This document shows positions 5,126 through 17,665 of a stretch of DNA of 63,051 nt, piece by piece. Under the pieces are notes generated by a model. It did not search any database. It was not told where the DNA came from and worked only from the letters and a program-made list of their open reading frames with translations. Source of the DNA: Sandaracinus sp. (GTDB lineage Bacteria > Myxococcota_A > Polyangia > Polyangiales > Houyiibacteriaceae); NCBI GenBank assembly GCA_002699025.1, contig PABA01000079.1:1-63051 (forward strand), read 5' to 3'. The position numbers were made by a program, and so were the translations under genes. Positions within the stretch are counted from its first letter, which is position 1. The number at the start of each line of letters is the position of its first letter.

Positions 5126-8100
5126 TCAGCGGAGGTCGACGGGATCCGCTCGGTGGGCCTGGGTCCAGCTCGCGCTCGTGAGCACGTCGGGGTTCACGGC
5201 GGCGTCGAGCTCCCGGCCGGTGATCGACCCGTGGCAGGTGCCGCAGAGGCCGTTGAAGAAGCGGCGGGGGAAGGACTGGTTGTTGTCCTCGCCCGGGTAG
5301 AACTGGAGCTGCTCGCGCTGCCGCACCTCGCCGGTGAAGAGGGGGTGCTCCTCGAACATCAGCGCGCCGCCCCCGCCGTCGGTCGGCTGCAGCAGGATCG
5401 GCGCGCCACCGGGGATGATCACCCGCACGGATCCGTCGGCGAAGGTCGGCGCGAAGCCGAGGTCGCGGTAGTCCACGAAGACCTCACCGAAGGAGTCGCT
5501 GACCACGTTCCCGGCCACGTCGGCGAAGCTCGTGGCTCCGGCGGGCGGCGGCTGCGCCTCGAGCACGCGCATGCCGCCGACTCGCGGATCGATGTCCCGG
5601 TCGGTCCGGATGTTCTCGAAGAGCAGGCTCCCGAGCATGGGCAGGTCGAGGACGTGCACCTCGGCCGCGCTCTCGCCCTCGACGATCCGCGTGTTGCCGT
5701 TGGCCTCGTCCGGGCGCGACTCGAAGACCTCGAACACGGGCCGCGAGTACACGGCGACGGGCTCCACGTTCACGAGCCCCGCCTCGCCACCGAGCACGCG
5801 CACCTCCTGGGTCAGCGGGTCGAGCTCGCAGAGCTCCCAGGCGTAGGGCCCGGCGCCCATGTCCATGGCCCCCGGATCGCACGCCACGAGCAGACGCCCG
5901 GTCGGGAGCGGCGCCGGCGAGCGGAACACGCCGCTCGTGGTCGAGCCCCCGGGCACGGAGGGGATGCCCCCGAAGGCCCCGGGCACGGGCACGTTCATCG
6001 AGTGGATGTAGTCCCGATCCCCCGCCGGCCGGTCCGACTGGTCGGGCCCGATCGAGCGGTTCACGACCACGATCGTGCCCTCGCCCTCGTTCGGCGTGAG
6101 CGAGCTCGCCACGAAGGCCAGGTTCCGGTTCGGCAGCTCGACGACCTCGGTCGCCGCGCGGAAGCCGACGCTCTCGCGCTGGGCGAAGAGCGGGTGGTAG
6201 TCGCCGCCGTCGAGGTTCTGGCGCCGGAGCGCGAGCATGTGGAACTCGGGCTCGCGCTTCTCGGTGGTGAAGATGAGCCGCCCGTCGCCCATGAAGCTCG
6301 GCGAGAGCTCCTGGTTGAGGAGGAAGGTCATCTGCCGCACCCCGCCCTCCTCGCGGATGAAGAGGTTCGCGTTCGGCTGCATGGCCGCGGGCGTGCGCGT
6401 CGGCCCGCGGTACTCGACCATCCCGTCGACGTTGCCGCGCGTGCTCGCGAAGACGAGGCGCCCGTCCGGCGCCCAGGCCGGATCGAAGTCGTGCACGAGG
6501 ATGCCGTTCTCCTCGTCCATGCCGTAGGCGATGTCCGGGACCGGCTCGCAGCCCGTGCCGTCCGTGCCCATCCAGTAGAGCCGAAGCGGCTCGGCCGCGC
6601 TCGAGCGCGCCGCGAAGGCCAGCCGCTGGCCGTCCCAGCTCACCGCCGGGTTCCGCACGTCGACGTCCCCGCCGAGCCCGCACGCCGCGAGGAGGCTCGT
6701 CGAGCTGCCGAAGTCCACGTCGACGCTGCCGTCGGCGTTCGCCGTCACGGGCGCCTGCCGGAGATCGGCGCCGCCGCGGAACGTGTCGAAGTCGCGCACG
6801 TCGCCCACGCCGCTCGGGCGCGCGACCCAGACGATCGAGTCGACGACCGAGTCCTCGGGCAGCACGTCGCCCTCGAGGATGGCCTGCTCACGCTCGATCT
6901 CGTGCCAGCGTGCGAGCACGCAGTAGGCGGGGATCTCGTTGAGGTCGCCGTCGTCCGCGTCGACCCCATCGCAGAGCGCGGCGTTCGCCGGGTTCAGGGA
7001 GCCGCCGCCGCTGAAGTCCTCGAAGAGCGAGCCGCCGCGGTGCGGGATGCCCGCGCCGCCCTCGACGTCGAGCGGCGGGTAGAGGTTCTTCGCGATGATG
7101 CGGCTGTCGTTCGGATCCGGGGACTCGACCGCGAGCTGCAGGAGCGAGGCCTCGTAGTTCCGATGGGTCGCGATGCGCGAGAACACGCCCTGGGCGCCGC
7201 CCTGCAGGCGCAGGTCGTGGAACATGGACGGCGAGTGGCAGTTGAGGAACATGCAGCCCTTGCGCACGAGCACCGGCTGCACCCGGTTCGCGAAGTAGCG
7301 CAGCCCCGGATCCGGATCGTCGTCGACGAGGAGCTCGGGGCGCCGGTCGGCGATGTCCTGGGCCCAGTCGCGGAGCGTCACGTAGCGGGGGTCCTCCGTG
7401 TTCGCGAGGACGTTGCCGCCCTCGTGGTAGACGCCGCCGCTGAGCATGGAGAGGGGCCGGCGGAGGAGGCCCGAGGTGGAGACCGGCGTCGTCACGTGGC
7501 TGAGCGTCGTGAAGTAGTTCCAGCGCATCTCCTCGTCGGTCTCGCCGCAGGTGAGGTAGAGGTCCGCGAAGCTGTTGCCGTGACAGCGCGAGCCCGCGCA
7601 GCTCTCCTGGAGCACCGGCATCACCTCCTCGCGGAAGCGCCGGAAGGAGTCCGCGTCCTCGGGCGCCACGCTCGGGTCGAAGCCCGCCCCGTGGCCCACG
7701 CCGCGCACGCACTCGCCGAGGTTGCCCTGGAGCGTCTCGTCCGGAGCGCCGGTGCGCGCTGCGCCCTCCTCGATCCAGCGCTTCAGCTCGGCGTAGCCGC
7801 GCGAGTCCGTGCGGATGAGCGTGCCCGCGGCGTGGCGGATGTCGGTCTCGATTCGCGCGAAGCGCTCGCCGGTGATGGGGTCCGGATCCCAGGTCTCGAC
7901 CGTGACCTCGACGTCCTCGCCGCCCTTCAGGAGCAGGTTGCCCACGGTGTAGGGGCCGTAGGGCGCGAGCACGTCCCGGCGCCGCATGAGCGCGTCGTAG
8001 CTCGAGAGATCGAGGTTGCCGGTCGCGGCGCCGTCCACGTCGACGTGGCAGCCGTTCGTCTGCTGGGCGCAGCCGAAGTCGAGCACCGGCTGGATGCGCT

Positions 8101-8248
8101 CCTGGAAGTAGGAGCCGCCCGGCGGGGGCTGCTCCTCGCAGCCGCTCGCGACGCCGAGGGCGCAGAGCAGGAGCAAGGGGGCCCAGGAGCGACGCGCCGG
8201 GGCACGGCTTCGACTCGCGCGGAGTTCGTTCTCTCGCATTCTTCCCAT
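5126..8248 (-). CDS. large c-type cytochrome-like beta-propeller lipoprotein (1040 aa)
   Basis: An exported protein of unknown role. The lipoprotein signal ends at Cys37 (LGVASGC). Three related segments follow the pattern Phe-x-x-x-Val/Ile-x-Pro-Val-Leu then Cys-(x)n-Cys-His: CX6CH at residues 60-68, CX4CH (CAGSRCH) near 217 and CX4CH (CMFLNCH) near 331. They resemble planctomycete-type cytochrome c domains. About residues 500-900 contain TolB-like propeller strands (AVSWDGQRLAFAARS, DPAWAPDGRLVFAS). A canonical CXXCH (LCGTCHGS) lies near residue 1000. The family resembles hydrazine-synthase-alpha-like proteins found widely outside anammox bacteria (inference). A second in-frame ATG at 8239 has the better upstream GGATGG. 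A terminator-like hairpin separates it from the HEAT gene, so it probably has its own promoter. Confidence 0.85.
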   Translation of the reverse strand: MGRMRENELRASRSRAPARRSWAPLLLLCALGVASGCEEQPPPGGSYFQERIQPVLDFGCAQQTNGCHVDVDGAATGNLDLSSYDALMRRRDVLAPYGPYTVGNLLLKGGEDVEVTVETWDPDPITGERFARIETDIRHAAGTLIRTDSRGYAELKRWIEEGAARTGAPDETLQGNLGECVRGVGHGAGFDPSVAPEDADSFRRFREEVMPVLQESCAGSRCHGNSFADLYLTCGETDEEMRWNYFTTLSHVTTPVSTSGLLRRPLSMLSGGVYHEGGNVLANTEDPRYVTLRDWAQDIADRRPELLVDDDPDPGLRYFANRVQPVLVRKGCMFLNCHSPSMFHDLRLQGGAQGVFSRIATHRNYEASLLQLAVESPDPNDSRIIAKNLYPPLDVEGGAGIPHRGGSLFEDFSGGGSLNPANAALCDGVDADDGDLNEIPAYCVLARWHEIEREQAILEGDVLPEDSVVDSIVWVARPSGVGDVRDFDTFRGGADLRQAPVTANADGSVDVDFGSSTSLLAACGLGGDVDVRNPAVSWDGQRLAFAARSSAAEPLRLYWMGTDGTGCEPVPDIAYGMDEENGILVHDFDPAWAPDGRLVFASTRGNVDGMVEYRGPTRTPAAMQPNANLFIREEGGVRQMTFLLNQELSPSFMGDGRLIFTTEKREPEFHMLALRRQNLDGGDYHPLFAQRESVGFRAATEVVELPNRNLAFVASSLTPNEGEGTIVVVNRSIGPDQSDRPAGDRDYIHSMNVPVPGAFGGIPSVPGGSTTSGVFRSPAPLPTGRLLVACDPGAMDMGAGPYAWELCELDPLTQEVRVLGGEAGLVNVEPVAVYSRPVFEVFESRPDEANGNTRIVEGESAAEVHVLDLPMLGSLLFENIRTDRDIDPRVGGMRVLEAQPPPAGATSFADVAGNVVSDSFGEVFVDYRDLGFAPTFADGSVRVIIPGGAPILLQPTDGGGGALMFEEHPLFTGEVRQREQLQFYPGEDNNQSFPRRFFNGLCGTCHGSITGRELDAAVNPDVLTSASWTQAHRADPVDLR

Positions 8249-8454
8249 CCAGCGGGGGGCGGCCCCGCGAACCAGATTCTACCCGAGACGGCTAGGGTCG
8301 GGGGCCGTGCGAGGCGAAACCCGGACGGTTCCCCATGCCGCGTCGAACGCACCCTTCGGGCTGAGCCGAACGAGCGGTGGTGAGGCGGCGGAGTGGGGGC
8401 TCCGGGCGGCGCGACCCCGGGCGAGGCCGCGCCACAGACCCCCGGAACGCGGAA

Positions 8455-8485
8455 GAGGCCCCGACGCACCATGCGCCGAGGCCCC
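8455..8485 (-). terminator. intrinsic-type terminator after the HEAT-repeat gene
   Basis: Read on the minus strand, a 14-bp stem with three G-U wobbles and a UGG loop forms about 30 nt after the stop of the HEAT gene, followed by UUCC. On the plus strand the same three positions are A-C mismatches, so the hairpin is stable only in minus-strand RNA, which fits its position. Confidence 0.65.
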
Positions 8486-8517
8486 TCCCTACCGATGATC
8501 GTGTCGGCGGTGCACGC

Positions 8518-9429
8518 TCACATCAGGAGGGCGACCTCGAGGGCGTCGAGCACGAGGCTCTCCGTCTCCGTGGTCATGGCCTCCCGCAGAGCGCCGCGGG
8601 CGTCCGCCCCACCGATATGACCGAGGGCCCAGGCCGCGGCCTGGCGCACCCGGAGGCTCTCGTCGCCCCGAAGGAGGGCAGCGAGGGCCGGCACGGACTC
8701 GGCGAGCCGCATCTGACCGACGATCCGAGCGGCGCGCATGCGCACCATCGTGTCGTCGTCGCCGAGGGCGCCGAGCAGGGCGTCGTGCTCACGGAAGAAG
8801 TTCACCTTGAGCACCTGGTCGATGGCGGCCCGGCGGACCTCCACGTTCGTGTCCGCCAGCGCCTGCCCGAGGACGGCGTTGCCGCCCGGGTGGTTCAGCC
8901 GGCCGAGGGCGCGAACGACGGCCTCGCGGACGACGCTCTCCCCCTCGCGGTCGAAGGCGTCGGTGAGCGGCTCGAGCCCGTTCGGGTCGAGGAACTCACC
9001 GATGGCCCGCGCCGCCCGCGCCCGGCGGACCGGGCTCGAGTCGGACTCGAGGGCGGTGACCATGCGGTTCATGATCGCGGGGATGGCGAAGGGACGATGC
9101 CGCAGCCACCAGGCCGAGATCCGCCGCACCTCCGGGTCCTCGCTCTCGAGCAGGTTGCGCTCGAGCAGCGGGACGCAGGCGTGGCACTCGACCCGCTCGC
9201 CGTACTCGAGGAGCGCGATGAGCCCCTCGGTCGACGCGGTCTGGATACCGTTCATCATCTCTTCGCGCGTCGGGGCCTGCGCCCCGGGCGAGAGCTCGCC
9301 GCGCTCCCGGTCGTGGACCACGACCTCGGTCGGCTCGCCATCTTCCTGAGCGCTCGCCAGGGTCGGCACCGCGAGGGCGGCGACCAGGCTGAGGAGCACC
9401 CAACGAGACATGGTGTTCTTGCTGTTCAT
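8518..9429 (-). CDS. secreted HEAT-repeat protein
   Basis: A 303-residue protein with a Sec signal peptide (residues 1-28, ending TLASAQ). Helical HEAT-type repeats run from about residue 60 to the end, with typical lines such as VRRARAARAIGEFLDP, VREAVVRALGRLNHPGG, VRMRAARIVGQMR and VRQAAAWALGHIGGADAR. Such solenoids act as protein-binding scaffolds. A CHAC motif near residue 85 might be a metal or heme contact but is not CXXCH. ATG 9429 has GAGGAG 7 nt upstream. It starts 21 nt after the stop of the 734-aa cytochrome-like gene, so the two form an operon. I infer that the scaffold binds that protein outside the cytoplasm. Confidence 0.92.
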   Translation of the reverse strand: MNSKNTMSRWVLLSLVAALAVPTLASAQEDGEPTEVVVHDRERGELSPGAQAPTREEMMNGIQTASTEGLIALLEYGERVECHACVPLLERNLLESEDPEVRRISAWWLRHRPFAIPAIMNRMVTALESDSSPVRRARAARAIGEFLDPNGLEPLTDAFDREGESVVREAVVRALGRLNHPGGNAVLGQALADTNVEVRRAAIDQVLKVNFFREHDALLGALGDDDTMVRMRAARIVGQMRLAESVPALAALLRGDESLRVRQAAAWALGHIGGADARGALREAMTTETESLVLDALEVALLM

Positions 9430-9450
9430 GACGTGTCTCCTCTTCGGCTC

Positions 9451-11655
9451 TCAGTCGTACTCGCGGGCGCCCCAGGCGTCCGCGCCTTCGACGTTGCGAC
9501 GGGACCAGTACTGACCACCGAGGTCGGCCATCTGAATGAGCATCAGACGCTCCTCGCGGGTCAGGTCGACGCCGACGTCCTCGGGGTGGCTGCCACCCTC
9601 CCAGGCCCAGTCGCCGTCGTCGGTCTCGCTGTTGATGTTCAGCACCTCGATGAGGCGCGACGTGCGGGCCAGGCCCGGGGTGACCCACTCCGGCGGCGTG
9701 TCGCCGGTCGCGACCGAGTCGCCCATCATCGCCGACGGGTAGAGCAGCGTGACGTACGAGGCCGGATACGTGTGCGTGTCCATCTCGTAGTAGACCTCGA
9801 GCGGCTCGTCCGTGAGCAGGAGATAGGGGATCTCGTACTCGAGCATCTCGCCGTCGTCGGTGGTCGTCGTGACGGTGTAGAAGCGGCCCGCGAAGGGGTC
9901 GTCCGCGCCGCCGTCGTGGCAGCTCACGCAGTTCTCATCGAAGATGTCCTGCAGGTTCGGGCCGCTCGCGGCGCCGTACCAGGGCAGCTCGGTGCGATCG
10001 GGGATGGCCGCGTTGAAGTCCTGCGGGCCGGCCTGCTGGGCGAGGGTCGTCGGACCCATGCGCGGCAGGACCTGACCGGTGCGGTCCTCGTGGCAGCCAC
10101 CGCAGCGACGCTCCTCACCGGGCATGGCCTGGATCCAGAGCATCTGGTTGCGGATGGCCATGCCGTAGCGGTCGAGCGCCTGCAGGTGGTAGGGCAGGCG
10201 ACCGGGCACGGCGGCCTCCCAGGAGCCGTCGTCGTAGACCTCGGCCTCACCGACGATGGCGGCGCCCTCGTGCATGGTCAGGCCGAACTCGCGGACCGGG
10301 CCGATCTCCGAGGAGAAGCCCTCGATGATGCGGACGCGCGTCGTCTGGTCGAGCGCCTCGTCGAGCGAGGTGCCGTCGAACTGGCCGCCGCGCACACGCT
10401 CGTTCAGGCCGGTGACGGTGACGTCGACCGAACCCAGGATGGCGGGCTCGCTCTCGTCCGGCGTCGGGCCGACGAAGCCCCGGCGAACCGGCGGGATGTC
10501 GCGCGGCCGGACCGGGATGGCGTAGGTGTCCCAAAAGCTCGGGTCGTCGTAGACGAGGGTGCGGCGGCGCGTCTCCGGGTCCCAGAGGTAGATGCCGAAG
10601 TTCGGCGCCGTCTCCGCGAGCTCGTTGCGCTCGTTCACGTCTCCGTCGGCCCAGGCGACCAGGAACTGGCCGTCGTTCAGCGGGAAGGGCCGGCGGTAGC
10701 GGCCGACGCCGCTCGGGGGGCTCGCCTCGCCGGTCGGGACCTGCGGGGTGAGCACGTCGAAGCGGGCGTTCTGCTCGTCGATGAGCACGCCGTCGACGCC
10801 GCCTTCGGCGCGCGCGTCCAGGTGGACGAGGGCGCCCGCCTGGATGGTGCCGCGGCGGCTGGTGACGACGCCGATGAACTGGCCCGGGTCGATCTCCTGG
10901 AACTGCACGAGGCTGTTGCCCGGCTTACCGCCCGTGCCGGCGAGGCCGACCATCTGCGTGCAGTCCGGGTTCATGGCCATCAGCTTGACGTCGTTGAGCG
11001 GGCCGAGGTGCTCCCAGCGCGAGAAGCCCACGCGGCCGTCGCTCATCAGGAACGGGTCGGCGGAGTGCGAGAGGTTCTGCGCGCAGAGGCGCCGGTCGGC
11101 GTCGCCCGCGTCCACGCTGATGGTGGCGAGCTGGGTGACCACGCGGCTGTGGTTGTACTCGTCCGCGCGGGTGCCCATCTCGGTGAAGGGCTGGTTGGTC
11201 ACGAAGGCGATGCGGTCGCCCGGGACGAAGATGGGCTTGACGTCGTGCCAGTCACCGAAGGTGAGCTGGCGAACGCCCGAGCCATCCACGTTCGCGACGT
11301 AGACGTGGTAGTGGCGGCTGTCGGCCGTGCGCATCGAGAACACCACCTGCGTGGCGTCGAAGCTCAGGTCCATGCCGTTGATGTCGACGCCCTCGAACTC
11401 CTCCGTGAGGTTGGTGAGGGTGCCGTCCGGCGTGGGCGGCGAGAGCACGTAGAGCCCGCCTCCGGGCTCGTAGCGCAGGTAGTCGATCGTCTGGCCGTTG
11501 CCACCCGTGACGTTGTGGCCGCCTCCCTCCGTGATGAACGCTCTCTTCACGAAGACGACGGCTTGGACGCCGGGTAGAACGCTGTCGTCGGGGTCGCCCC
11601 CCGAGCACGCCAGGAGCAACGTCGCCAGGGCGACGCTCATCCAGGTTCTGTTCAT
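9451..11655 (-). CDS. hydrazine-synthase-alpha-like diheme beta-propeller lipoprotein
   Basis: A 734-residue exported protein. ATG 11655 is chosen because it follows AGGAGG by 5-6 nt and leads straight into a lipoprotein signal (VALATLLLAC). The N-terminal half is TolB/YVTN-like propeller sequence (LSFDATQVVFSMRTADSRHY, then VKPIFVPGDRIAFVTN). Two canonical heme-attachment motifs follow, CGGCH near residue 516 and CVSCH near 576. A Tyr-rich C-terminal region (YPASYVTLLYPSAMMGDS) lies between and after them. This architecture matches the hydrazine synthase alpha-subunit-related family. There is no sign of the beta or gamma subunits or other anammox genes, so the substrate is unknown. It heads the operon with the HEAT gene and is divergent from the CcdA-thioredoxin gene. 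Confidence 0.9.
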   Translation of the reverse strand: MNRTWMSVALATLLLACSGGDPDDSVLPGVQAVVFVKRAFITEGGGHNVTGGNGQTIDYLRYEPGGGLYVLSPPTPDGTLTNLTEEFEGVDINGMDLSFDATQVVFSMRTADSRHYHVYVANVDGSGVRQLTFGDWHDVKPIFVPGDRIAFVTNQPFTEMGTRADEYNHSRVVTQLATISVDAGDADRRLCAQNLSHSADPFLMSDGRVGFSRWEHLGPLNDVKLMAMNPDCTQMVGLAGTGGKPGNSLVQFQEIDPGQFIGVVTSRRGTIQAGALVHLDARAEGGVDGVLIDEQNARFDVLTPQVPTGEASPPSGVGRYRRPFPLNDGQFLVAWADGDVNERNELAETAPNFGIYLWDPETRRRTLVYDDPSFWDTYAIPVRPRDIPPVRRGFVGPTPDESEPAILGSVDVTVTGLNERVRGGQFDGTSLDEALDQTTRVRIIEGFSSEIGPVREFGLTMHEGAAIVGEAEVYDDGSWEAAVPGRLPYHLQALDRYGMAIRNQMLWIQAMPGEERRCGGCHEDRTGQVLPRMGPTTLAQQAGPQDFNAAIPDRTELPWYGAASGPNLQDIFDENCVSCHDGGADDPFAGRFYTVTTTTDDGEMLEYEIPYLLLTDEPLEVYYEMDTHTYPASYVTLLYPSAMMGDSVATGDTPPEWVTPGLARTSRLIEVLNINSETDDGDWAWEGGSHPEDVGVDLTREERLMLIQMADLGGQYWSRRNVEGADAWGAREYD

Positions 11656-11903
11656 GGTTGCCTCCTCGGTCATCGGCGCTCCGAACATGTGCAAAACTCG
11701 ATCCCAGCTAAAAGCCCAATGATTTCCATGGGAGGTCTCTCGGCGGGTTGGGGGTCTGCACCCCCAAAGGGCTCTCCATGGGGGTCCGCGCCCCCGGAGT
11801 TTCCCCCGCCGAAACAGGGGTGAACGGGCCTCTCGCCGCTCCGTATGAGCGACCCCTCGGCGGGCAGTACCCCTCGCGCGTGCGCGGTGCTAGGAAAGGA
11901 GCG

Positions 11904-13232
11904 ATGCGTACGCTCTCCCGCTGGCTGACCGGCCTCGCCGCCGGCGCCCTCGCCTGGGGCGTGGCGGCCCCCGCCCAGGCCGACATCCTCGGCGACATCG
12001 CCGGCGACTTCGAATCCGCCCTGAGCAGCGGCAGCTACGCCTGGGCGCTCCTCTTGATCTTCGGCGCGGGCCTCGCCACGGCCCTGACGCCCTGCGTCTA
12101 TCCGATGATCGCCATCACCGTGTCGATCTTCGGCGCGCGCCAGGCGAAGTCGAAGGCCGAGGGCGCCCTGCTCTCCTTCAGCTTCGTGCTCGGCATCGCC
12201 GCGCTCTTCACGCCGCTCGGCATCATCAGCGCGCTGACCGGGAGCGCCATGGGCAGCGCGCTGGCGAACCCCTGGGTCCTCGCCGTGCTGGCCATCCTCT
12301 TCCTCGCGATGGCCCTGAGCATGTTCGGCGCCTGGGACATGAACCTCCCGCCCGCGCTCCAGAACAAGCTCGCCCAGGTGGGGGGCGCCGGCTACAAGGG
12401 CGCCTTCGGCGTGGGCTTCGTGAACGGGCTCATCGCCGCGCCCTGCACGGGCCCGGTCCTGACGGTGCTGCTGACCTACGTCGGCACGACCCAGTCGGTG
12501 GCCTTCGGCGCGCTCAGCCTCTTCGTCTACTCGCTGGGCCTGGGGGTGCTCTTCTTCGTCGTCGGCACCTTCGCGGTGAGCCTTCCGAAGTCGGGCAAGT
12601 GGCTCGACCACGTGAAGAGCTTCTTCGGCGTGGTGATGCTCGTGCTCGCCTTCTACTACCTGCGCAGCATCCTCCCGCTCCCGCGCCCGGTCGTGCGCGA
12701 GACGCTCTGGCTGGCCATCCCGGCCGGGCTGCTGCTCTTCGGGGTCGCCGTCGGCGCGATCCACCTCTCCTTCAAGGAGGGCACGAAGCTCCAGAAGGCG
12801 CGGAAGGCCGTGGGCGTGACGGCGGCCGTGGTCGGCGGGCTCGGGCTGATCTTCTGGCTCGAGGCGCTCCCGGCGGGCGCGCACATCGAGTGGATCGAGG
12901 ACTACGAGGCGGGCTTCGCGATGGCCGAGGAGACCGGCAAGCCGATGCTGGTCGACTTCGGCGCCGACTGGTGCGGCGCCTGCAACGACCTCGAGCACGA
13001 GGCCATGAGCGACCCGCGGGTGGTCGCCGAGGCGCAGCGCTTCGTGCCCGTGCGCGTCGACCTGAGCGCGGATCAGGCTACGCCGGAGAAGTGGGCGCTC
13101 CTGCGGGAGCGCTACGAGCAGCCGGGCTTGCCCCTGGTGGTGATGCACGGCGCGGACGGGGACGAGGCGCATCGGGTGACCGGGCTCGTGAGCGCGGACG
13201 AGTTCCTCGAGATGCTCCGCGCCACGAATTGA
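11904..13232 (+). CDS. dsbD: CcdA-thioredoxin (DsbD-like) thiol:disulfide interchange protein
   Basis: A 442-residue inner-membrane reductant carrier that moves electrons from cytoplasmic thioredoxin to exported proteins. A signal peptide (residues 1-26) precedes eight or so membrane segments carrying the paired CcdA cysteines in TPC (Cys64) and APC (Cys181). The C-terminus is a thioredoxin domain with WCGAC (Cys357, Cys360) and a cis-Pro (QPGLPLVV). Classical DsbD has an additional N-terminal Ig-like domain of about 120 residues with its own cysteine pair; it is missing here. ATG 11904 has AGGA 8 nt upstream. Head-to-head with the diheme protein gene, it could supply reducing power for heme attachment (inference). 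The symbol is by resemblance. Confidence 0.9.
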   Translation: MRTLSRWLTGLAAGALAWGVAAPAQADILGDIAGDFESALSSGSYAWALLLIFGAGLATALTPCVYPMIAITVSIFGARQAKSKAEGALLSFSFVLGIAALFTPLGIISALTGSAMGSALANPWVLAVLAILFLAMALSMFGAWDMNLPPALQNKLAQVGGAGYKGAFGVGFVNGLIAAPCTGPVLTVLLTYVGTTQSVAFGALSLFVYSLGLGVLFFVVGTFAVSLPKSGKWLDHVKSFFGVVMLVLAFYYLRSILPLPRPVVRETLWLAIPAGLLLFGVAVGAIHLSFKEGTKLQKARKAVGVTAAVVGGLGLIFWLEALPAGAHIEWIEDYEAGFAMAEETGKPMLVDFGADWCGACNDLEHEAMSDPRVVAEAQRFVPVRVDLSADQATPEKWALLRERYEQPGLPLVVMHGADGDEAHRVTGLVSADEFLEMLRATN

Positions 13233-14764: not shown

Positions 14765-15913
14765 CTAGATGCGCCCCTCGGCCTTCTGCTGGCGCTCGAT
14801 GCTCTCGAAGAGCGCGCGGAAGTTGCCGCCGCCGAAGCCCTTGTCGCCCTTGCGCTCGATGATCTCGAAGAAGAAGGGCCCGGCCTCGCGCTCGTCGTGC
14901 GTCGACGCCGAGTCCTGCAGGAAGATCTGCAGCAGGTAGCTGTTCTTCCCCTTCCCATCGACGAGGATCTGCAGCTCCCGCAGCTCGTCCATGTCCTCGT
15001 CGATGGCGCCGATCTCGAGCTCCTCGAGGCGCGCCGGGAGCATGTCGTAGTAGACGCCCGGCGTCGGGAAGAAGTCGACGCCCCGCTCGCGCAGCCCGCG
15101 CACGGCCTTCTGGATCGCGTTCACGGCGAGCGCCGCGTGCTGGATGCCGTCGCCGCGCTGGTCCTCCGCGAAGAGGTAGATCTGCGACTTCTTGAAGAAG
15201 GGCCGGAGCGGCTCGTTGTTCGCGAACTTCACGCCGCTCTTCGGATCCCACATCACCTGCGAGCGGAGCCCCGAGCCCTCGGGCCGGTCGGGCGCCACGT
15301 CGTTCGTGTGGAACTCGATGTCCCAGTAGCGCTCGAAGCCCATCACGTGCTCCATCCAGAGCAGCGCCGGGCTCATGGTCTCGAAGTTCGACGTGATGTG
15401 GTCGATGTGGTCGAAGCCGTAGGCGTTGTCGCCGCCCTTCGGCGTCTCGTGCTCCTCGAAGCCCGGCACGAGGCGCGGGTAGGCCTCGTCGCGCTGCACG
15501 AAGCGGAAGGTGCTCGAGCCGAAGGGCGTCGTGATCGAGAAGGTGCGCAGCGTGCCGCCGCCGTCCTCGTAGGTCTCGATCTCCTGCATGGGCGTCCCGC
15601 CCCGCGCGTCGAGCAGGCGGAAGGTCTTCTCGATGTCCTCCACCTCGAAGACGATACTGCCGACGCCGTCCGGGTGCCGCTTCAGCCACCGCCAAGCCCG
15701 GCCGCCCTCCCCCAGCGGCGCGCTCACGAGCACGTTCACGTCACCGGCGCGGAAGAGGAGCGAGCGCTGCTTGCCCGCCTCCTCGAGCGCCTTCGAGCTC
15801 TGGCCGATCTCCGCGAAGTCGAGCTTCTTCGTGTAGAACGCGCGGCTCCGCTCGAGGTCGTGCACGTAGTAGTGGATCGCTTCGATGCGCTTGATGCCGA
15901 GGGACTCGACCAT
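14765..15913 (-). CDS. hppD: 4-hydroxyphenylpyruvate dioxygenase
   Basis: Converts 4-hydroxyphenylpyruvate to homogentisate in tyrosine degradation; a cytoplasmic Fe(II) enzyme of 382 residues, the usual length. It consists of two vicinal-oxygen-chelate modules. The iron ligands are visible as His in DHIDHITSN (about 166), His in GIQHAALAV (about 258) and Glu in PFFFEIIER (about 350). The C-terminal GFGGGNFRALFESIE helix that gates the active site is intact. ATG 15913 has AAGGAG 7 nt upstream. It is the last of three same-strand genes, 97 nt downstream of maiA, and together they form a tyrosine catabolic operon. Confidence 0.97.
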   Translation of the reverse strand: MVESLGIKRIEAIHYYVHDLERSRAFYTKKLDFAEIGQSSKALEEAGKQRSLLFRAGDVNVLVSAPLGEGGRAWRWLKRHPDGVGSIVFEVEDIEKTFRLLDARGGTPMQEIETYEDGGGTLRTFSITTPFGSSTFRFVQRDEAYPRLVPGFEEHETPKGGDNAYGFDHIDHITSNFETMSPALLWMEHVMGFERYWDIEFHTNDVAPDRPEGSGLRSQVMWDPKSGVKFANNEPLRPFFKKSQIYLFAEDQRGDGIQHAALAVNAIQKAVRGLRERGVDFFPTPGVYYDMLPARLEELEIGAIDEDMDELRELQILVDGKGKNSYLLQIFLQDSASTHDEREAGPFFFEIIERKGDKGFGGGNFRALFESIERQQKAEGRI

Positions 15914-16010
15914 GGGGCTTCTCCTTCGAGGCGGATGAGGGTCCGCGGCAGGCGGACGGCTTCAGGGGATGAGGGCGTGCAGTCGCGGGCGGCCGCGCGC
16001 GAGCCCACGC

Positions 16011-16691
16011 TCAGGATGGCTCGGCGGACGGCGCGTCCGGCTGCCGGTCGGGGTGCGCGGCCTGGAACGCCGGGAGGCTCGCGCAGCGCGCCTCGGCGCG
16101 CAGGAGCGTCGGGTAGGCGTCGACGTCCACGTCGAAGCGGCGCGCGTTGTAGAGCTGCGGCACGAGGCAGACGTCCGCGACGCTCGGCCGGTCCCCGACC
16201 AGGTAGGCGCCGGCCGTCTCCTTCGCGAGCTTCTCCATGGCGCCCAGGCCCTTGGCGATCACGCCGCGCGCGTGGGCCACCTTGTCGCCGCCGAGCGAGT
16301 CGACGAGCAGGAGCGTCGCGAAGTTCTGGAGCGGCTGGATGCCGGCGTTGACGATCTCGGCATGCTCCCAGGCGCGGGCGCGGGCCCAGGCGTCCGCGGG
16401 GACGAGCGCCTTCTCGGGGTAGGCGTCCTCGAGGAAGTGCAGGATGGCGAGCGACTGGGTCAGGCGGCGAGTGAGCGCGCCCTCCTCCCACTCGAGCACG
16501 GGCACCTGCTGGAGCGTGTTGACGCCCGCGTAGTCGTCCGAGCGCTGCTCGCCCTCGCGCAGGTGGATCGAGCGGACCTCGTAGGCGAGGCCCTTGTGCT
16601 CGAGGGCGATGCGGACCCGCCAGCTGCAGCTGCTCCGCCAGTAGGCGTAGAGCCGCAGCGGGGGGAGCGCGCCGCTCTCGGCCTCGCTCAC
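16011..16691 (-). CDS. maiA: maleylacetoacetate isomerase (zeta-class GST)
   Basis: A 226-residue glutathione-dependent enzyme that isomerises maleylacetoacetate to fumarylacetoacetate. The thioredoxin-like N-terminal domain carries the diagnostic SSCSWRVRIAL motif, and the NTLQQVPVLEWEEG and LTQSLAILHFLED glutathione-site segments are present. The helical C-terminal domain follows (VGDRPSVADVCLVPQLYNA). The GTG at 16691 overlaps the stop of fahA (GTGA), so translation is probably coupled. The enzyme sits in the cytoplasm between the substrates of hppD and fahA. Confidence 0.94.
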   Translation of the reverse strand: MSEAESGALPPLRLYAYWRSSCSWRVRIALEHKGLAYEVRSIHLREGEQRSDDYAGVNTLQQVPVLEWEEGALTRRLTQSLAILHFLEDAYPEKALVPADAWARARAWEHAEIVNAGIQPLQNFATLLLVDSLGGDKVAHARGVIAKGLGAMEKLAKETAGAYLVGDRPSVADVCLVPQLYNARRFDVDVDAYPTLLRAEARCASLPAFQAAHPDRQPDAPSAEPS

Positions 16692-17665
16692 GCCTCGACG
16701 ACCTTCTGCGCGATGGTGCCGAAGAGGTTCCGGCCCTCCGTGTCGCGCATCTCGATCGTGACCTCGTCGCCGGCCTTCAGGAACGCCGTGGTCGGCTTCC
16801 CGTCCTTCAGGATCTCGCGCATGCGCCGCTCGGCGAGGCAGCTCACGCCGCGGGCCTCGTCCTCGTTGGAGACCGTGCCGCTCCCGAGGATGGTGCCGGC
16901 GGTGAAGGCGCGGGTCTTCGTGATGTGCTGGATGAGGTCGCGGAAGGAGAAGTGCATCTCCGGGCCGGCCGCCGGGTCGCCCGCGAGGTCGCCGTTGAGC
17001 GTCGTGCGCATGGTCAGGTGGACGCGGCCCTCCTTCCAGGCGTCGCCGAGCTCGTCGGGCGTGATCGCGAAGGGCGAGAACGCCGTGGCGGGCTTCGAGT
17101 TGAAGAAGCCGAAGTTCTTCTTGAGCTCCGCGGGGATCAGGTTCCGCAGCGTGACGTCGTTGCAGAGCATGAGGAGCTTCACGTGCCGGTCCGCGTCGTC
17201 CTTCTTCACGCCGCGGGGCGTGTCGCCGAGCACGACGCAGATCTCCGCCTCGAAGTCGAGGCCCCACTCGGGGTTCGGCAGCTCGATGTCGTCGGTGGGC
17301 GCGAGGAGCACGCCGCTCCCGCCCTGGTAGACGAGCGGGTCGGTCTCGAGGGTCTCGGGGGGCTCGGCGTTCCGGGCCTTCCGGACGAGGACGATGTGGT
17401 TGATGTAGGCGGAGCCGTCGACCCACTCGTAGGCGCGGGGGAGCGGGGCGTGGAGCTTCGCGACGTCGAGGGGCTGGCCCTCGACCTCGCCGGCGTCGAG
17501 CTTCTTCGCGAGGGCGCGGAGCTTCGGCTCGGCCTCGTCCCAGGTGTCGAGGGCGGCCTGGAGCGTGGGGGCGATGCCCTCGGCCGGGGTGATCTTGGTG
17601 CCGTCGTGGCTGACGACGACGAGCTTTCCGTCGCGGGTTCCGTCGCGGAGCGTGGCGAGCCTCAT
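16688..17665 (-). CDS. fahA: fumarylacetoacetate hydrolase family protein
   Basis: A 325-residue cytoplasmic hydrolase that splits fumarylacetoacetate into fumarate and acetoacetate, the final step of tyrosine degradation. The FAH catalytic fold is shown by LDFEAEICVVLGD (metal-binding acidic residues), MLCNDVTLRNL, FGFFNSKPATAFSPFAITPD and GTILGSGTVSNEDE. The length fits the short bacterial form rather than the 420-residue eukaryotic one. It leads the fahA-maiA-hppD operon, and its stop overlaps the maiA start. Homogentisate dioxygenase, needed between hppD and maiA, is not in the window. Confidence 0.94.
   Translation of the reverse strand: MRLATLRDGTRDGKLVVVSHDGTKITPAEGIAPTLQAALDTWDEAEPKLRALAKKLDAGEVEGQPLDVAKLHAPLPRAYEWVDGSAYINHIVLVRKARNAEPPETLETDPLVYQGGSGVLLAPTDDIELPNPEWGLDFEAEICVVLGDTPRGVKKDDADRHVKLLMLCNDVTLRNLIPAELKKNFGFFNSKPATAFSPFAITPDELGDAWKEGRVHLTMRTTLNGDLAGDPAAGPEMHFSFRDLIQHITKTRAFTAGTILGSGTVSNEDEARGVSCLAERRMREILKDGKPTTAFLKAGDEVTIEMRDTEGRNLFGTIAQKVVEA

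Follow-up and report, generated by a model that had tools for sequence, protein, structure and literature searches.

Hydrazine synthase has, to our knowledge, long been considered an enzyme without relatives, and the occurrence of a diheme β-propeller lipoprotein resembling its α-subunit (HZS-α) in Sandaracinus sp. raises the question of whether the surrounding locus encodes a hydrazine synthase, another heme enzyme or an electron-transfer system. The locus lies in a 63,051-nucleotide stretch of DNA (contig PABA01000079.1 of assembly GCA_002699025.1), hereafter the window, from a host genome of 9.24 Mb in 238 contigs. Three genes, encoding P1, a HEAT protein (P2) and P3, follow one another in this order on the minus strand (Table 1). 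The initial annotation had placed P1, a diheme lipoprotein with two CXXCH motifs, beside the gene of a secreted HEAT protein, and this arrangement is confirmed, with a gap of 21 bp between the two genes and a purine-rich stretch ahead of the HEAT ATG. The gap between the HEAT gene and the P3 gene is 269 bp. As read from the sequence, the three genes are likely to share one transcript; scans of the locus for promoters and terminators gave no hits (approximately none and one, respectively, expected from shuffled sequences).

Table 1. Features of the P1–HEAT–P3 locus in the window
Feature	Position	Strand	Description
P1	9451..11655	minus	734-residue lipoprotein, lipobox Cys17; whole-length HZS-α fold (propeller, middle domain, C-terminal cytochrome domain), as predicted
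CGGCH of P1 (residues 518-522)	10090..10104	minus	place of heme αI; aligned with CSGCH of 5c2v
CVSCH of P1 (residues 576-580)	9916..9930	minus	place of heme αII; aligned with CAMCH of 5c2v
P2 (HEAT protein)	8518..9429	minus	303 residues; signal peptide, secreted; HEAT repeats; Cys82-x-x-Cys85
P3	5126..8248	minus	1040-residue lipoprotein, lipobox Cys37
P3 motifs			CX6CH, residues 60-68; CX4CH, 217-223; CX4CH, 332-338; CXXCH, 1002-1006
DsbD-type transmembrane and thioredoxin protein	11898..13232	plus	divergent from P1; Pfam DsbD_TM, E 3.9e-51

Profile comparison and structure prediction agree that the likeness of P1 to HZS-α is true homology over the whole length of the protein. The initial annotation had compared the architecture of P1 with that of HZS-α, and a search with the Pfam HZS_alpha model PF18582, which represents the middle domain, bears out the comparison (E 1.8e-14; 54.5 bits against a gathering cut-off of 26.6 bits). 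The single P1 sequence matches chain A of the hydrazine synthase structure (PDB 5c2v_A) at E 2.6e-5. The match strengthens to E 2.9e-17 with a profile of P1 orthologs, in colinear pieces that run over the propeller, the middle domain and the αI and αII regions to the last helix, and to E 7.5e-58 when fused relatives are added to the profile. A structure prediction of P1 alone, proposed earlier as a check, leads to the same protein. The AlphaFold2 model (mean pLDDT 78, pTM 0.75) finds its best PDB match in 5c2v_A (Z-score 31.4 over 567 residues, with model residues 28–724 placed on chain residues 54–802; Foldseek E 1.3e-26), and the next-best entries are TolB structures matched over the propeller only. 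Given that His587 of HZS-α is chain residue 560, P1 His690 aligns with chain residue 745, which corresponds to α-His772.

P3 was initially described as a second, larger propeller lipoprotein with four Cys...Cys-His motifs. The four motifs are present, one as CXXCH and three with wider spacing, but P3 is not just another propeller: it is a second HZS-α-type protein with three extra cytochrome-like repeats at its N-terminus. A P3 profile matches 5c2v at E 1.2e-7, and the P3 AlphaFold model (pLDDT 75) has its best PDB match in 5c2v, ahead of the TolB propellers (Z-score 32.6 over 465 residues, residues 374–1040 on chain residues 29–621). By profile and model, P3 therefore consists, behind its N-terminal part, of a propeller, a middle domain and an αI heme site and lacks the αII domain. 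P3 of the window scores 12.9 bits on PF18582, under the 26.6-bit cut-off; four of 24 P3 orthologs match the model at E-values up to 0.01, and a score of 31.3 bits was obtained for one P3 relative (G046:C119). A direct comparison of the P1 and P3 profiles gives a probability of 99.6%, which identifies the two proteins, at the level of sequence profiles, as paralogs. The N-terminal repeats of P3 stand in tandem (CX6CH, CX4CH and CX4CH) and match one another in pairwise profile comparisons with probabilities of 97%, 74% and 50%, with the C..CH motif and a later His in register. Model confidence is poor at the wider-spaced motifs (pLDDT below 50 in residues 56–109, 219–223 and 339–353).

The putative heme-binding residues are conserved almost without exception. 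Loss of the CXXCH motifs in close homologs, named in the initial annotation as an observation that would speak against its reading, is not seen, as both motifs are invariant in all 30 P1 sequences; invariance across approximately 30 divergent sequences rules out that the motifs arose by chance. The propeller residues Cys191 and Cys232 of P1 are likewise invariant across the 30 sequences, and His690 is kept in 29 of 29. All four P3 motifs occur in every aligned sequence (24 or 25), except for one loss of His68. His139, His275 and His403 of P3, each located downstream of one N-terminal C..CH motif, are also invariant and are the probable second heme ligands. The Cys82-x-x-Cys85 motif is found in all 29 HEAT proteins, and the lipobox Cys is invariant in both P1 and P3. 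Comparison with near relatives yields dN/dS values of approximately 0.2–0.5.

Despite its homology to HZS-α, the cassette is almost certainly not a hydrazine synthase. The NCBIfam model for the hydrazine synthase α-subunit (NF052339; curated equivalog cut-off 800 bits) gives 65.9 bits for P1 and 17.5 bits for P3, both below the cut-off. In hydrazine synthase, Tyr591 is the proximal ligand of heme αI, and the CXXCH residue His587 binds zinc (PMC12607021). The Tyr591 position, four residues past the CXXCH His, is occupied by Thr526 in P1 and by Thr or Ser in the orthologs shown (CHEDRT, CHESRS and similar). α-His772, the second ligand of heme αII (PMC12758564), has its counterpart in P1 His690, and P3 lacks the corresponding domain. 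Cys303, a zinc ligand of HZS-α, is not conserved in all anammox bacteria (PMC12758564), and the Cys303 stretch of 5c2v lies outside all P1 alignments obtained. No β, γ or fused β-γ gene was recognized in the cassette or among its neighbors, which upholds, for the β and γ portion, the initial statement that no other part of anammox metabolism is present. With these scores, no Tyr591 equivalent and no adjoining β or γ gene, a plain hydrazine synthase is rejected, and synthesis of hydrazine by the cassette is unlikely. A search with PF13447 (octaheme proteins of the HAO and hydrazine dehydrogenase type) returned no match in the host genome and none in the control genomes either.

The best β-γ match elsewhere in the host genome scores 43 bits against a cut-off of 1250 and lies on other contigs. 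Two unlinked gene pairs are found on contigs C114 and C5 (L108:9173-13416 and L109:8593-12479), each consisting of a lipoprotein-like frame of 556–608 residues followed by a protein of 739–808 residues with two CXXCH motifs and weak β-γ or CCP_MauG similarity. The propeller-diheme genes on these contigs were considered as missing β-γ partners and rejected on their weak matches and on the lack of an HZS-α gene nearby.

Within the genomes searched, the three-gene cassette is confined to a single class of Myxococcota. A search of 84,980 species genomes for relatives of P1 located 29 loci, all from Myxococcota, Myxococcales, Polyangia or unresolved Deltaproteobacteria or Proteobacteria bins. In 24 of these loci the sequence extends far enough downstream to show the gene order, and P1–HEAT–P3 on one strand is preserved without exception; the other five stop at a contig edge. 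Among 282 Myxococcota genomes, 24 contain P1, all from the class of the window (Polyangia), and the same 24 contain a full-length P3. P1 and P3 are neighbors by coordinates in 19 of these 24 genomes and lie on separate contigs in three; two genomes of one genus contain P1–HEAT without an adjacent P3 and carry P3 copies elsewhere. The HEAT gene is retained between P1 and P3 in class-level relatives. The suggestion that the system is specific to Myxococcota and relatives holds for the cassette in the genomes searched and fails for HZS-α-like proteins at large, which also occur in Bacteroidota and, according to the papers cited here, in Planctomycetota, Desulfobacterota and KSB1.

Functional hints from the neighboring genes are weak because no flanking gene is common to all families: clustering of the neighbors identified none that accompanies the trio in every one of them. 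The DsbD-type gene lies near P1 in Sandaracinaceae-type loci only, and Polyangiaceae-type loci flank the trio with a HisI-like and a response-regulator-like gene (names assigned by eye). Farther along the window, the minus strand carries at 14765-17665 a glutathione-transferase-like frame between a gene resembling VOC-type dioxygenases and one resembling fumarylacetoacetase; read by eye, these genes look like a tyrosine degradation set. Stand-alone P3 paralogs without P1 have surroundings of their own. Three of the five such loci read, from two families, place the paralog beside a gene for a β-eliminating lyase of the tryptophanase or tyrosine phenol-lyase type (L072:5987-10508, L073:4561-10159 and L075:6962-11541), and the surroundings of L073 include COX1, SCO-like and hemerythrin genes. 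Another stand-alone paralog (L071:2325-5494) has a DUF1552 and DUF1592/1588/1595/1585 pair downstream, genes that are common in Planctomycetota.

In other Myxococcota classes, the HZS-α-like protein is a single fused polypeptide, whose commonest form combines two CX4CH repeats, a propeller and the αI and αII motifs. In nine of the loci read, mostly from other classes, the fused protein has a propeller-diheme, β-γ-like neighbor within a few kb (L077, L093, L096, L097, L099 and L102-L105). The neighbor in L077 weakly matches NF052342, NF052340, NF052341 and 5c2v_B, and this locus also contains CCP/MauG-type and di-heme oxidoreductase genes. Fused proteins such as those of L077, L099 and L103 share the propeller, middle domain and αI site with both P1 and P3, the two CX4CH repeats with P3 and the αII motif with P1. 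They differ from the cassette in being one protein rather than two, in often having the β-γ-like neighbor and in having no HEAT protein matched nearby. By this comparison of sequences, the cassette looks like a split, β-γ-less derivative of the fused form. In the simplest reading, an ancestral gene would have been duplicated and the two copies would have lost complementary parts to give the trio: P1 would have kept the αI and αII sites, P3 would have kept the N-terminal repeats and the αI site, and the β-γ partner would have been replaced or lost. A further HZS-α-like subtype of approximately 1,055 residues (L091, L092 and L106) contains two CXXCH motifs without N-terminal heme repeats, and two of these three proteins have an apparent C-terminal membrane anchor.

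HZS-like proteins outside anammox are already known; the arrangement of paired α-type proteins with a HEAT protein is not, as far as searched. HZS-α of Kuenenia stuttgartiensis (PDB 5c2v) resembles P1 in whole-length fold, in the places of the two CXXCH motifs and in the His at the α-His772 place, and resembles P3 from the propeller to αI. The cassette differs in having two α-like proteins, a HEAT partner, lipoprotein anchors and three extra heme-like repeats in P3, and in lacking the Tyr591 equivalent and adjoining β and γ genes. HZS-like pairs of α and β-γ proteins are reported in Planctomycetota and Desulfobacterota, in clades I–IV (Hagglund et al., PMC12758564), and a wide hzs-like family with other substrates has been proposed (PMC10732223). 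These non-anammox proteins belong to the same superfamily and, like the cassette, do not conserve key HZS residues; a canonical heme c site is predicted at αI in the homolog modeled (PMC12758564 / PMC10732223). They are paired with a β-γ fusion, whereas the trio of the window is not, and clade I is reported without α-His772 (PMC12758564), whereas P1 keeps this His. The main text of PMC12758564 makes no mention of Myxococcota, and a full-text search of open-access journal papers for HZS-like proteins with Myxococcota found no paper on a paired-α and HEAT cassette. The Bacteroidota fusions (Parabacteroides distasonis WP_228002637.1 and Aureibacter tunicatorum WP_309942852.1) share the propeller, middle domain and two CXXCH motifs with P1 but are approximately 1,325 residues long, carry a C-terminal SUMF1/FGE-like domain and have other neighbors; phmmer alignments with such a fusion were shown over the FGE part only. 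The Bacteroidota fusions at L046:4762-8748 and L047:4723-8694 are plasmid proteins, one encoded beside ccsA and dihydroxyacetone kinase genes and the other beside two sulfatase genes.

We favor, at slightly better than even confidence, a reading of sequence and models in which the cassette forms one extracytoplasmic redox complex, with P1 and P3 on the HZS-α scaffold, the HEAT protein between them and approximately six hemes. The two paralogs would be lipid-anchored, and the CxxC-containing HEAT protein would most likely bridge them. All six motifs would carry c-type heme, and cytochrome c assembly genes are present in the host genome. The αI-type heme of P1, and probably that of P3, would have a His ligand and a sixth position that is vacant or only loosely occupied; a small substrate or redox partner would react there. 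The P1 αII heme, with ligands His580 and His690, would be low-spin, as would the N-terminal hemes of P3 (second ligands His139, His275 and His403), and these hemes would carry electrons to or from the αI site. The neighboring DsbD-type protein may supply reductant and keep cysteines reduced. Homology, predicted fold, gene linkage, co-occurrence and motif invariance are observed and favor this picture, in which the heme attachment, the ligand roles and the electron path are inferred. Counting against it are the poor model confidence at the wider-spaced P3 motifs, the two genomes in which P1–HEAT has no P3 beside it, and the PF18582 score of the window P3, which falls short of the cut-off. In the initial annotation, the system was proposed to be an extracytoplasmic oxidoreductase or electron-transfer system; the one ground for a putative enzymatic role is descent from a heme enzyme family. 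A bolder version, which we hold only tentatively, is that the cassette is a new kind of heme enzyme with two HZS-α-type subunits linked by the CxxC HEAT protein, which would work without β-γ, form bonds or carry out redox chemistry on a small molecule in a context other than anammox, and derive by splitting from an HZS-like fusion protein of the kind that other Myxococcota still have.

A complex without any catalytic site of its own, in which six hemes would conduct electrons from a quinol- or cytochrome-linked donor to an outside acceptor across or along the envelope, is a credible minority reading. Most of the motifs resemble bis-His electron-transfer hemes, P1 and P3 are both lipoproteins with an invariant lipobox Cys, and the Tyr ligand and β-γ partner of the enzyme are missing. 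Such a conduit is harder to reconcile with the retention of the αI domain and its CXXCH in both P1 and P3, for which no shared sixth-ligand His is seen, and the neighbors include no recognizable porin or outer-membrane barrel that is kept together with the trio.

MauG-type heme proteins and the Bacteroidota FGE fusions suggest another analogy, in which the cassette would oxidize or modify side chains of an envelope protein or polymer and bind its target through the propeller. This is improbable: the Bacteroidota relatives of P1 are indeed fused to a SUMF1/FGE-type domain, with one adjoining sulfatases, and the fused Myxococcota relative in L077 adjoins CCP/MauG-type genes, but the trio of the window has neither an FGE domain nor a sulfatase or MauG gene linked to it, and FGE-like domains serve many roles. 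Chemistry on small nitrogen species (NO, hydroxylamine or ammonia) in the manner of hydrazine synthase is more doubtful still and is judged very improbable. Whole-length homology to HZS-α and the αII ligand His retained in P1 would suit it; against it stand the 66 bits measured against a cut-off of 800, Thr or Ser at the Tyr591 position, and the β-γ genes, with none adjoining and only weak matches elsewhere in the genome (43 bits of 1250).

The favored reading of one extracytoplasmic redox complex bears on a standing question, the origin of hydrazine synthase. A conserved complex with the HZS-α fold, in bacteria that show no trace of the other anammox components and without the Tyr ligand, would offer a tractable comparison for the behavior of the scaffold when a β-γ partner is missing. 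Matches to the HZS-α domain in metagenomes do not equate to anammox. Myxococcota contain both the fused form with a β-γ partner and the split form, and the order of events is therefore open to study within one phylum.
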